Positions 23,152 through 26,774 of a stretch of DNA of 32,973 nucleotides are shown piece after piece. Position 1 is the stretch's first letter, and each line of letters begins with the position of its first letter. The stretch is from NCBI RefSeq assembly GCF_900163695.1, contig NZ_FUIC01000042.1, positions 1 to 32,973 of the forward strand. The letters run 5' to 3'. Under the pieces are notes generated by a model. That model was not told the DNA's origin, made no database searches, and saw only the letters and a list, made by a program, of their open reading frames with translations. The stretch comes from Gulosibacter sp. 10 (lineage in GTDB: Bacteria > Actinomycetota > Actinomycetes > Actinomycetales > Microbacteriaceae). Both the position numbers and the translations under genes were made by a program.

Positions 23152-23523
23152 ATGGCAGTCACCGGCCCCGACTTCATCGCCCTCCAGGTGCGCGATCTCG
23201 ATCGCGCTGCCGACTTCTACGAGACGCGGCTCGGCCTGCGGCGCGCGCCCGTCTCGCCTCCCGGCGCCGCGGTCTTCGCCACGAGCCCGATCCCGTTCGC
23301 GGTGCGCGAGCCGCTCCCCGGCGTCGACCTCGACCGGGCAGCCCCGCGGCCCGGGCTCGGCGTCGCCCTCTGGCTGCACTGCGACGACGCGCAGGCGCTC
23401 CACGACTCGTTGGCGGCCACCGGCGTGGAGATCGCGAGCGCCCCGCAGCCGGGCCCGTTCGGCCTCGCCTTCACCTTCATCGACTCCGACGGCTACGCGG
23501 TGACCGTCCACGACCGGGCATGA
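23152..23523 (+). CDS. VOC-family (glyoxalase/bleomycin-resistance-like) protein
   Basis: This is a 123-residue paired beta-alpha-beta-beta-beta fold protein: FIALQVRDLDRAADFYETRLGLRRAP in the first half, and ALHDSLAATGVEIASAPQPGPFGLAFTFIDSDGYAVTVHD in the second. Members bind or modify small molecules such as glyoxal adducts, bleomycin and fosfomycin. The usual metal ligands at the first strand (His) appear absent (Ala/Gln there), so binding rather than catalysis is possible. GGAAGGAACCCC precedes the ATG. Its stop overlaps the AlkA start (ATGA), so both are made together under MarR control. Confidence 0.9.
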   Translation: MAVTGPDFIALQVRDLDRAADFYETRLGLRRAPVSPPGAAVFATSPIPFAVREPLPGVDLDRAAPRPGLGVALWLHCDDAQALHDSLAATGVEIASAPQPGPFGLAFTFIDSDGYAVTVHDRA

Positions 23524-24512
23524 CCCCGACGATCCGGCTGCCCCGGCCGCCGGGGTTCTCCCTCGAGGCCGGCAGCGCCTTCGTCATGGACTTCGCCGCG
23601 AGCCAGGGCGGCGAGGCCGCGCCCGCGCTCAACCTCGCGTTCGCGCTCGACCGCACCTGGCAGCCGGTCGGCGTGCGCGTCTCCGAGCGGGATCGGATGC
23701 TCGACGCGGAGATCGTCGCCGACCCGCGCTCCGCGAGCGCCGAGGCCATCCGCGGAGACCTGCTGCGCATCCTCAGCCTGCACCCGGCCGAGGACGACCC
23801 GCTCGCCGAGATCGCCGCGCGCGACCCGATCGTCGAGCACCTGCGGCGGCGCTATCCGGGCCTGCGCCCCGTGCAGTTCCCGACGCCGTGGGAGGCCGCG
23901 GCCTGGTCGGTCATCGGGCGCCGCATCCGCATCGTCCAGGCCGCGCGGATCAAACAGCGCCTCTCCGAGCGATTCGGGATGCGCACGGAGTTCCCGGGCG
24001 GCCAGACCCTCTGCAGCTTCCCCGGCCCCGACGCGGTCCTCGACCTCTCCGCGATGCCCGGGCTCACCGCGCGCAAGTTCGAGACGATCAGGGGGCTGGC
24101 GCGCGCCGCGCTCGACGGGGCCCTCGACACCGGACGGCTGCGGGGCCTGCCGCCGGCGGAGGCCGCGGCCGAGCTGCAGCGGCTCTCCGGCATCGGGCCG
24201 TTCTCCGCGGAGCTCATCCTGGTGCGCGGCGCCGGCGCTCCCGATCTATTCCCGTCGCACGAGCCGCGGCTCGCGAAGGCCATGGCCGCGCTCTACGGCG
24301 CCGAGGACGGGCACGAGCACGAGCGGATCGCCGAGCGGTGGCGGCCGTACCGCAGCTGGGTCGCGCTCCTCATCCGCCGCTGGCTCGAGGACGAGACCGG
24401 GGAGATCGCCCGCAGCGTGCCGGTCGACGCGGTCCCGAGGCCCGATTTCGCGAGGCGGCCCCCGGGCCGGCGGACGGACGCGGGCCAGGCGTCCGGCATC
24501 ACGCCAGCTTGA
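23520..24512 (+). CDS. AlkA-like DNA-3-methyladenine glycosylase, altered catalytic residue
   Basis: This is a 330-residue HhH-GPD protein. The N-terminal domain (1-115) is AlkA-like. The glycosylase core contains PTPWEAAAWSVIGRRIRIVQAARI, the hairpin LSGIGPFSAELILVRGAG (about 222-240) and DLFPSHEPRL (242-251). In AlkA relatives the catalytic Asp lies in FPxxD; at that place here the sequence reads FPSHE, so Asp appears replaced by Glu248. The enzyme would flip and excise alkylated bases; whether Glu works is not known. The last codons and stop are supplied by the left copy of a direct repeat that flanks the abi cassette. It is translated in overlap with the VOC gene under a MarR operator, which suggests induction by alkylating or electrophilic compounds. 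Confidence 0.85.
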   Translation: MTPTIRLPRPPGFSLEAGSAFVMDFAASQGGEAAPALNLAFALDRTWQPVGVRVSERDRMLDAEIVADPRSASAEAIRGDLLRILSLHPAEDDPLAEIAARDPIVEHLRRRYPGLRPVQFPTPWEAAAWSVIGRRIRIVQAARIKQRLSERFGMRTEFPGGQTLCSFPGPDAVLDLSAMPGLTARKFETIRGLARAALDGALDTGRLRGLPPAEAAAELQRLSGIGPFSAELILVRGAGAPDLFPSHEPRLAKAMAALYGAEDGHEHERIAERWRPYRSWVALLIRRWLEDETGEIARSVPVDAVPRPDFARRPPGRRTDAGQASGITPA

Positions 24513-24526
24513 TCGCCCGCTCCGAG
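24498..24526. repeat. Left direct repeat flanking abi cassette
   Basis: This 29-bp sequence, starting ATCACGCCAGCTTGATCGCC, matches 25403-25440 except for a 9-bp unit (GATCGCCCT) present only in the right copy. On the minus strand it spells SERAIKLA-stop, the end of the truncated membrane protein gene at 25404; on the plus strand it gives the ITPA-stop of AlkA. Confidence 0.85.
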
Positions 24527-24527
24527 C

Positions 24528-24548
24528 CGGAGGATTCGCACACCTCCG
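24528..24548 (-). terminator. Weak hairpin after abi gene
   Basis: CGGAGG, 9 nt, CCTCCG, 24 nt past the abi stop; short stem and no T-run. Possible terminator only. Confidence 0.3.
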
Positions 24549-24571
24549 TTCGAGGCAGGACCGGCGAGTAC

Positions 24572-25288
24572 TCAGCGAAGGCCGGTCGCGCTGGTCAAAC
24601 CCGGGATCGGACAAGAAGCGATGGCCGCATCGAGCGTGGAGGTGCCGGCGACGTAGGCGCACGCGTCCGGGTCGATCAGTTCGAACAGTTCCTGCACCTC
24701 GGTGAGGCGATCCTCCAGCCCGGTGCGCGTGGAGAACACCGGCTCATTATGTGCGAGCCGGTTGCGGAACTTCACCACACGGGCGACCAGATCATGCACC
24801 CGCGCCCTCGCCGTGCCCCTGGGGAATGCCCGATGCAGCATCGGATTCCACAGCGTCGGCGTCCGCTCCGCGACCGTCAGATTCGCCCAGAACCCGAACG
24901 TCAACGCGGCCACGACCTCGGCGTGCGTCGGCGCCGAGCTCAGCCCGCGTTTCGCGTCCGCGACCCGGGACAGACTCACCTGATTCCGGCGACGCTGCCG
25001 AGCACGAGCACGCTGCACGCCCTGCTCCAACCGGAACAACGACGACCGCTCGTCGACCGACCAATCCGGGAAACGCAGCGAAAGTTCGCGGTCGTAGGCG
25101 TTGCGGACAGCAATTTCGAGGTGTCCGACATCCACGATCCCGGCAGCGGCGACGCGCGAGTTCCACGAGTACGTCTCCATCGCCAGAGCATGGTCTCCGT
25201 TCGCGACAGCGAGGTACCGCCGGTAACGCGGCGCGCTCAACCACCGCTCGGCCTGTACGGCATCGAGAGCGCGGGATGATTCCGACAT
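24572..25288 (-). CDS. Abi-family HEPN protein (abortive-infection ribonuclease type)
   Basis: This is a 238-residue protein of the Abi_2 (AbiD/AbiF-like) group. The N-terminal half has RYRRYLAVANGDHALAMETYSWNSRVA and the conserved GHLEIAVRNAYDREL (about 55-69). A central LTFGFWANL (about 129-137) is typical of the family. The HEPN catalytic motif R-x4-H is R175-H180 in KFRNRLAHNEPVF. HEPN proteins of this kind cleave RNA and arrest growth on phage attack; some act with an RNA partner. The ATG has only a weak AGCAGG site. A compact structured RNA lies 22 nt upstream. Base composition looks less GC-rich than the flanking genes, which, with the flanking direct repeats, suggests recent acquisition. 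No protein antitoxin is adjacent. Confidence 0.88.
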   Translation of the reverse strand: MSESSRALDAVQAERWLSAPRYRRYLAVANGDHALAMETYSWNSRVAAAGIVDVGHLEIAVRNAYDRELSLRFPDWSVDERSSLFRLEQGVQRARARQRRRNQVSLSRVADAKRGLSSAPTHAEVVAALTFGFWANLTVAERTPTLWNPMLHRAFPRGTARARVHDLVARVVKFRNRLAHNEPVFSTRTGLEDRLTEVQELFELIDPDACAYVAGTSTLDAAIASCPIPGLTSATGLR

Positions 25289-25306
25289 GCCTGCTATGCT
25301 AGGCGT

Positions 25307-25366
25307 ATCGCCCCGCGGGAACCGTCCTCTGTCTGGCCCAGCCAGTTAGGCACCGCGGGGCTTTGT
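25307..25366 (+). ncRNA. Structured RNA candidate next to abi gene (abiF-RNA-like)
   Basis: A 9-bp perfect stem GCCCCGCGG/CCGCGGGGC (25310-25318 with 25353-25361) encloses a hairpin CTGGC-CCA-GCCAG (25333-25345) and single-stranded GAACCGTCCTCTGT and TTAGGCA that could pair in part. On the plus strand it ends in CTTTGTCC, terminator-like, and is preceded by an extended -10, TGCTATGCT (25292-25300), so an RNA of about 60 nt transcribed away from abi is plausible. On the minus strand the same fold would be the 5' leader of abi. A conserved abiF RNA motif near abiF genes is known from comparative genomics; whether this one belongs to it needs a covariance search. Strand is uncertain. Confidence 0.5.
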
Positions 25367-25402
25367 CCTGCCCATGCTCCGCTCAATCTTGCGGCAACCG
25401 GG

Positions 25403-25440
25403 ATCACGCCAGCTTGATCGCCCTGATCGCCCGCTCCGAG
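25403..25440. repeat. Right direct repeat flanking abi cassette
   Basis: The 38-bp right copy includes a 9-bp tandem duplication (GATCGCCCT then GATCGCCCG) that is single in the left copy. It encodes the last residues (SERAIRAIKLA-stop) of the truncated membrane protein on the minus strand. Confidence 0.85.
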
Positions 25441-25640
25441 AGCCAGACGAAGAGCGCCAGGAGCACGAGCGCGGCGCCCAGCAGCGGCGCCGCGCTCGCC
25501 GCGCTCAGCCCCGCCGCATCCGTGACGGCTCTGGACCCGAGGTTGAGCATGTTCGTGTTCAGCGCCTGCGGGATGAGGTAGCCGAGCGGCCGCAGCGACC
25601 CCTGCAGCACGACGGCGATGCCCGCGACCGGGTGCAGCTC
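25404..25640 (-). pseudogene. C-terminal remnant of a membrane protein (permease-like)
   Basis: An open frame on the minus strand ends in about 75 convincing residues: HPVAGIAVVLQGSLRPLGY, a linker, then a span APLLGAALVLLALFVWLSERAIRAIKLA. This is the shape of the last helix and tail of a transporter permease. Upstream of this the frame turns into unlikely Arg/Gln-rich sequence and there is no start or ribosome site, so the N-terminal part is missing. The gene seems broken by deletion at its 5' side, next to cmtR, and its 3' end is duplicated beyond the abi cassette. Confidence 0.6.
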
Positions 25641-25725
25641 GCGCTGCTCGCCCTGCGCACGGGGACCGCGCCGCTGTAGCCGCCAAGAGCAGGGCATCGC
25701 ATTTCCCTTAGGTCATCGACCGCTG

Positions 25726-25748
25726 TATAGTCAGCATATGCTGACTAT
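25726..25748 (+). promoter_or_regulatory. cmtR operator/promoter: perfect 22-bp palindrome over the start codon
   Basis: Bases 25727-25748 are a perfect palindrome with half-site ATAGTCAGCAT. The -10 element TATAGT (25726-25731) overlaps its left end, and the cmtR ATG (25738) lies at its centre, 6 bases past the -10, so transcription should start on or near the A of ATG (leaderless). CmtR binding would cover -10, start site and first codons together. Confidence 0.85.
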
Positions 25749-26097
25749 TGCTTCTCGGGTGGACGCGATGAACCGCCTCGGCCGCGCGATGGCCGACCCG
25801 ACCCGCTCGCGCATCCTGCTCTCCCTCCTGAACGGGCCGGGGCATCCGGCCCAGCTCGCCCGCGAACTGGAGCTCACGCGCACGAACGTGTCGAACCACC
25901 TCGCCTGTCTGCGCGGATGCGGGATCGTGGTCGCCGAGCCCGAGGGCAGGCGCACTCGGTACGAGATCGCCGATCCGCATCTGGCCGCCGCGCTGACGGC
26001 GCTGGTGGATGTGACGCTGGCCGTCGACGAGAGCGAGCCCTGCGTCGATCCGGCCTGCGGAGTTCCGGGCTGCTGCGGGGCGGAGGCGGGGCGATGA
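25738..26097 (+). CDS. cmtR: Cd(II)/Pb(II)-sensing repressor CmtR
   Basis: This is a 119-residue ArsR/SmtB-family metal sensor, closely matching Mycobacterium CmtR in LGRAMADPTRSRILLSLL, LTRTNVSNHLACLRGCGIVVAEPEGRRTRYEIADPHLA and the CVDPACG tail. The metal ligands Cys57, Cys61 and Cys102 fall at exactly the family positions. Extra Cys at 107, 112 and 113 lie in the tail. Metal binding releases the protein from its operator. The gene has no ribosome site and the likely transcription start is at the ATG. The stop overlaps the start of a cation-efflux gene (ATGA), which is the regulated partner. Confidence 0.95.
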   Translation: MLTIASRVDAMNRLGRAMADPTRSRILLSLLNGPGHPAQLARELELTRTNVSNHLACLRGCGIVVAEPEGRRTRYEIADPHLAAALTALVDVTLAVDESEPCVDPACGVPGCCGAEAGR

Positions 26098-26774
26098 CGG
26101 CGACGGCGGTTCCCGACCGTACGAGGGTGCTTCGGCGACGGATCCGGATCGTCGTCGCGATCACGATCACCTGGAACGTCATCGAGGCGGTCGTCGCGCT
26201 CGCGGCCGGCGGGGCCGCCTCCTCCGCAGCGCTGATCGGCTTCGGGCTCGACTCCGTCGTGGAGGTGCTCTCCGCCGCAGCCGTCGCCTGGCAGTTCGCG
26301 TCCCCCTCCCCCGAGCGCCGGGAGAAGGTCGCGCTGAAGGTGATCGCGGTGTCGTTCTTCGGCCTCGCCGCCTACGTCTCGGTCGACGCGATTCTGTCTC
26401 TGGCGGGGCTGCGCGAACCCGAGCACTCCCCGGTGGGGATCGTGATCGCGGCGCTGAGCCTCGCGGTGATGCCGTTCCTGTCGTGGTTCGAGCGGCGCAC
26501 GGGTCGCGAACTTGGCTCCGCCTCCGCGGTCGCGGATTCCAAGCAGACGCTCATCTGCACCTATCTCTCCGCCGCGCTGCTGGTCGGGCTGCTGCTGAAC
26601 AGCCTGGCGGGGTGGGCATGGGCGGACTCGGTCGCCGCGCTCGTGATCGCCGGATTCGCCGTCCGGGAGGGCGTCGAGGCCTGGCGGGGCGACGCCTGCT
26701 GCGCGGCTCCCGTGACCGCGCTCACCGGGGAGCGCGAGCAGTGCGAGGACGACTGCTGCCGGACCGGGATGTGA
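26094..26774 (+). CDS. Cation-efflux (CDF-like) transporter of cmtR operon
   Basis: This is a 226-residue membrane protein with six hydrophobic helices, from RIVVAITITWNVIEAVVALAAG through LICTYLSAALLVGLLLNSLAGWAWADSVAALVIAGFAVREGVEAW. Metal-site-like acidic residues lie in helices 2 and 5 (GLDSVVEVLSA, WADSVAAL) and near VADSKQT. The Cys-rich tail GDACCAAP...CEDDCCRTGM probably binds soft metal ions. It belongs to the cation diffusion facilitator-like group often found with CmtR. It is coupled to cmtR by an ATGA overlap, so it should be induced by Cd or Pb. It would export metal from the cytoplasm. Confidence 0.87.
   Translation: MTATAVPDRTRVLRRRIRIVVAITITWNVIEAVVALAAGGAASSAALIGFGLDSVVEVLSAAAVAWQFASPSPERREKVALKVIAVSFFGLAAYVSVDAILSLAGLREPEHSPVGIVIAALSLAVMPFLSWFERRTGRELGSASAVADSKQTLICTYLSAALLVGLLLNSLAGWAWADSVAALVIAGFAVREGVEAWRGDACCAAPVTALTGEREQCEDDCCRTGM

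Follow-up and report, generated by a model that had tools for sequence, protein, structure and literature searches.

An AbiF-like HEPN–RNA module between long direct repeats in Gulosibacter, probably inserted with target duplication

A 0.9-kb segment of the Gulosibacter sp. 10 contig analyzed here (the window, 32,973 nt) is best explained as an AbiF-like toxin–RNA module inserted with a long target duplication, a reading to which we give a probability of roughly 0.6. The module would have entered between an alkA-like gene and the 3′ remnant of a permease gene, leaving some 30–40 bp duplicated on both sides (Table 1). The folded RNA, upstream and on the same strand, most likely binds and restrains the HEPN ribonuclease, and phage infection or loss of the module would free the toxin. 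Both the neutralization and a role in phage defense are inferred by analogy with AbiFCd of C. difficile, neutralized by an upstream RNA according to the passages of PMC12373285 that deal with it (RCd22), and with PbAbiF, likewise neutralized by RNA in the corresponding part of a review (PMC12737573).

Table 1 Features of the cassette and its flanks in the window.
Feature	Position	Strand	Remarks
alkA-like glycosylase gene	23520..24512	+	ends inside left repeat
Left direct repeat (29 nt)	24498..24526	.	holds alkA stop codon
Cassette between repeats (876 nt)	24527..25402	-	order: RNA, then abi gene
AbiF-like HEPN protein, 238 aa	24572..25288	-	AF2 model, 8vz6 match, PADLOC, alignment
HEPN motif R175-N-R-L-A-H180	24749..24766	-	
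Structured RNA upstream of abi	25305..25369	-	stem arms 25353-25361 and 25310-25318; model R1
Right direct repeat (38 nt)	25403..25440	.	permease remnant 3′ end
Permease gene 3′ remnant	25404..25628	-	49-51% identity to C-termini of longer proteins
ArsR-family regulator gene, right neighbor	25738..26097	+	

Between the repeats lie a single open reading frame and a single fold, with room for nothing else, which agrees with an earlier note on this DNA that had described a 29-bp sequence at both ends of a segment carrying only an Abi-family HEPN gene and a compact RNA. The encoded protein very probably has an AbiF-type fold: its AF2 model matches the PbAbiF structure 8vz6, at a Foldseek E-value that fails to reach 0.001 (low Z rows of the structure comparison were disregarded), and by sequence a designed repeat protein ranks above 8vz6 (0.0018 vs 0.021). 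Residues R175, N176, R177, and H180 are invariant across 25 aligned sequences. PADLOC matched the protein to PD-T4-5 (E 2.8e-12), which a section of PMC9519451 presents as an abortive defense gene distantly related to AbiF/D, with no mention there of an RNA or of flanking repeats, and which differs from the window gene in being plasmid-borne in E. coli. Pfam returned only a sub-threshold hit to HEPN_Swt1 and none to Abi_2 at E ≤ 1. With AbiF toxin–ncRNA antitoxin systems the window locus shares the HEPN fold, the RNxxxH motif, and a structured RNA that immediately precedes the gene on its own strand; it differs in its actinobacterial host, in a protein only 16–18% identical to PbAbiF, in an RNA unmatched by the abiF family of Rfam, and in that neither a motif pair nor a terminator after the RNA is shown in the window.

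Comparison of homologous loci makes it highly likely that a conserved RNA precedes these abi genes. Its common form comprises a purine-rich lead, a CCCCGG stem, an AUG-like internal segment, a variable hairpin, an AGAGG-like segment, and CCGGGG. A covariance model built from 37 sequences was applied with a cut-off of E ≤ 0.01; it matched 28 of the 70 loci taken from the window's family and 57 of 67 loci found class-wide, and all 29 control loci stayed without a match. The matches lie upstream on the gene's strand in 27 and 57 loci, respectively, and in one locus (L038) on the strand opposite to the gene; 47 of them fell outside the training set. In an alignment fitted to the tested structure, the two helices have 95.5% paired cells, with 68 cells changed on both sides against a shuffled mean of 21.9, and this signal falls sharply when the pairing is slid; further pair types show no excess (9 vs 9.2). 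The variable results for hairpin P3 (450 of 2000 shuffles in a first, non-significant test; 151 in a second parsing, where 2000 shuffles averaged 124.7 and peaked at 147; at least 3 bp in 29/68, where the null averaged 20.2 with sd 3.0 and peaked at 31) leave the proposed RNA resting on the two helices and not on this hairpin. Two loci (L261 and L082) carry two RNA copies upstream of a single abi gene, an arrangement reminiscent of type III repeated antitoxins.

Searching 80 genomes with the model yielded 31 matches at E ≤ 5e-6, of which 23 adjoin a listed abi place (G130:C1 on the other strand), another falls within a stretch that matches abi, and the remaining seven are without abi on the RNA's strand within ~2 kb; among weaker matches (E 5e-6 to 0.01), 1 of 19 adjoins abi. 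The window's own genome (G000) gave no match at the threshold and filter of this genome-scale search. The window RNA has a 9-bp basal stem and scores 23.5 bits against model R1 (E 4e-4), its row having been in the training alignment. Folded alone, 114 nt are mildly stable (z −1.9, with 9 of 200 shuffles equally stable), and because the isolated fold is only mildly stable, the window RNA rests on comparison rather than energy; as judged from its sequence, it is a divergent, weak member of the family. Rfam gave nothing at E ≤ 1 in the window and nothing at E ≤ 5 in 15 relatives, and its abiF family (RF03085) was absent from the matches to the window stretch even at E ≤ 10 and from those to the relatives at E ≤ 5. 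At E ≤ 10 a short window stretch drew only four weak matches, far below the cut-offs, and no Rfam 15 family matches the RNA above chance.

The two repeat copies of the window share 21 identical nucleotides, followed by an extra 9-bp unit in the right copy and a further 8 identical nucleotides. Aligned flank to flank with a gap allowed, they score 48, compared with a maximum of 36 over 3000 mispaired flanks drawn from 70 homologous loci, and a search of the genome assembly (55 contigs, 99% complete) for the shared 21-mer, with up to 3 mismatches, brought up these two copies alone. The repeats had been taken for the 3′ end of a neighboring membrane-protein gene; the right copy is indeed a 3′ gene end, although the gene is a remnant and not intact. 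Of this remnant, a putative ABC permease as read from the sequences, about 73 C-terminal codons align to homologues, one of which, fully read, has 248 aa; a homologue is present in 3 of 198 other genomes of the family. The proposal that the cassette restores the stop of AlkA is not required, since the stop lies within the repeat and would be present without the cassette too. A scan of 24480-25760 found no promoter and two terminator-like sites within the gene strand. Elsewhere in the window, the permease remnant stands beside a regulator–cation-efflux pair that is matched on many actinobacterial plasmids (25404-26774), and positions 199-2983 hold two paralogous surface-protein-like reading frames with similar C-terminal ends and acidic repeats.

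Flanking repeats recur at a minority of homologous loci. We examined 70 of the 90 places listed for the 60 of 398 family genomes with a match. A second set of 68 loci (L204 and L218 left out as duplicates) came from a search across the class, where 65 of 394 genomes had a match. In near windows, 14 of these 138 loci score at least 40, and dropping L241 and L257, whose repeats are the RNAs of tandemly arranged abi genes, leaves 12: 4/70 in the first set and 8/68 in the second, each against 0 of 3000 mispaired pairs, the second null having been computed without 19 loci of shared sequence. The other 126 are without a strong flanking repeat, and a borderline locus (L034, an 18-bp exact pair scoring 36) was excluded from the count. 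A test with wider windows gave 5/70 loci at 44 or above (expected 0.0), with L087 (69 bp, 75%, spacing 1.8 kb) passing this test only; in a control of 86 non-abi loci, also taken with wider windows, long gapped alignments brought two loci to 45 and 41. The repeat-flanked loci represent seven sites: the window, L102, L038, L054, L261, L222, and one target shared by six loci (L201, L203, L212, L213, L225, and L226, two of them on one contig). As read from their sequences, the sites at L102, L038, and L054 are an FMN reductase gene, a terminator following prfA, and an HNH gene, respectively; that of the window is the permease remnant, and the target shared by six loci is the 5′ end of a small membrane gene.

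Such positions could alternatively belong to a site-specific element whose repeats are attL and attR, with an integrase that targets gene ends acting in trans or since lost, a rival that we regard as unlikely. At five of the seven sites (the window, L102, L038, L054, and the R site described below) the repeat is a gene end or terminator, with the gene whole or ending there, and a putative large serine recombinase is encoded near the alkA unit of a Leucobacter (L065), both of which favor it. Set against this, no common core was seen among the site repeat sequences, and the repeat-to-repeat spacing of 905–1132 bp in the nine loci measured fits the RNA and abi only. The window cassette has no room for a recombinase of its own, such as an integrase-based (CIME-like) element would use, although one may act in trans. 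That a missing integrase marks a non-autonomous cassette, as the earlier note had proposed, need not follow: no shared repeat core was seen, and some selfish modules are described as inserting with a long duplication of their target. Some restriction–modification systems insert with target duplications of ~100 bp (Mruk and Kobayashi, PMC3874152), the work of Nobusato 2000 and Furuta 2010 being covered in passages of PMC3874152, PMC1643837, and PMC3031569. What those passages have in common with our loci is a toxin-like unit between long direct repeats and a single copy at the empty site; here the cargo is a HEPN–RNA pair, the repeats measure 29–38 bp instead of ~100 bp, and the hosts are Actinomycetes.

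Pre-insertion sites were found for two related cassettes. G130 has the order terminator–RNA–abi–terminator, and in the congener G191 its flanks (94.7% and 90.0%) meet over a single 37-bp copy; the terminator occurs twice in G130 and once in G191. At this prfA-side site a third congener, G240, carries two terminator-like copies with a different insert of ~5 kb between them (L186:1050-6050). G457 and G468 lack the cassette that G081 has at the reductase end, and their flanks meet over 91 and 97 bp; of seven congeners aligned, the other five are not clean, and G252 has another gene there. For the window itself, no usable empty site was found in 60 relatives and 11 genus genomes with AlkA, via the permease end in 199 family genomes, or in an AlkA contig search and plasmids (these genome sets include the window's own genome); the plasmid matches listed concern the regulator–cation-transporter pair alone. 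The suggested comparison of the alkA-cmtR interval in relatives produced no single-copy site for the window; in congeners of two other hosts, those of G130 and G081, single-copy sites show that related cassettes were inserted.

Relatives of the alkA locus (L064 and L065) have other downstream DNA or a contig end. In the Leucobacter locus (L065:3264-6939), the putative large serine recombinase frame is close to the AlkA unit, which directly precedes a putative ComEC-like frame, and these surroundings suggest a mobile island. The HNH site of L054 was rejected as an empty site: all 29 loci read, from 39 other genomes with a match, are without abi in the flank covered, and the far flank does not align. 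At L271:3015-4691 (G828), a 122-bp copy (98%) of the 3′ end of an sdaA-like gene stands beyond abi; relatives of G828 keep abi there with no second copy in view, and the site was counted neither way.

In one family, toxin modules are arranged in arrays. A 120-bp element, R, has a match in 32 of 35 genomes; 17 of the 32 have a single match, and G786 has eight, which lie together on one contig. As L314, L315, and L270 show, positions 1-92 of R are the 5′ end of a gene for a small membrane protein, and the modules between copies (L265, L306-L312, and L316-L318) are abi, HicA/HicB-like, PIN, DUF5615, and Fic. The HicA/HicB-like label is a putative one read from the sequences, Pfam having given only sub-threshold DUF7387. 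Whole cassettes recur in other genomes between the same borders (for instance 845 bp in L269, 92%; 826 bp in L307, 96%), and a stretch that measures 0.21 kb in G704 is 4.36 kb long in G587. Like integron gene-cassette arrays, these are modular, bordered by a repeated element, and common to several genomes; the R border instead contains a copy of a gene's 5′ end, and no integron integrase was noticed.

The recurrence of whole cassettes also fits homologous integration of the Campbell type, in which DNA of a relative already bearing the module beside the same gene end was taken up, with later exchange and amplification by recombination between repeats. The repeat copies of G081 differ at 9 of 104 nt, neither being clearly ancestral, and this divergence, like the 9-bp indel between the window copies, speaks against the insertion reading and would suit an imported homologous end. 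Repeats of 18–38 bp (L034, L054, the window, and L038) are nevertheless short for homologous recombination, and the first insertion is left unexplained, so that we consider this origin improbable. A duplication of the permease end that was purely local, with abi gained separately and unconnected to it, would accord with the missing empty site of the window and with the 126 loci lacking strong repeats, but it is very hard to credit given that RNA and abi are closely bracketed by repeats here and in unrelated hosts and that other cassettes have single-copy empty sites. We accordingly retain insertion with target duplication as the preferred reading; sequence comparison makes insertion of the window cassette itself likely, and the opinion that the duplication arose at that step without an integrase stands evenly balanced.

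More tentatively, toxin modules of Actinomycetes, AbiF-like HEPN–RNA pairs included, might be cassettes sufficient in themselves: they would insert at the ends of genes, duplicate a long target stretch in doing so, and then form integron-like arrays without a dedicated integrase, by recombination between the bordering repeats. Among the titles that our searches of an open-licence library returned, none describes abi or toxin cassettes with target duplications, or such arrays. Single-gene defense and toxin modules raise the question of how they move in the absence of a transposase, and since module, RNA, and borders can be read here, along with the pre-insertion site for two relatives, the mechanism becomes testable. 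The RNA family extends the AbiF/Cas13-ancestor picture into the Actinomycetes. A duplicated gene end, to judge from the toxin-cassette arrays, may serve as the basis of an integron-like store.
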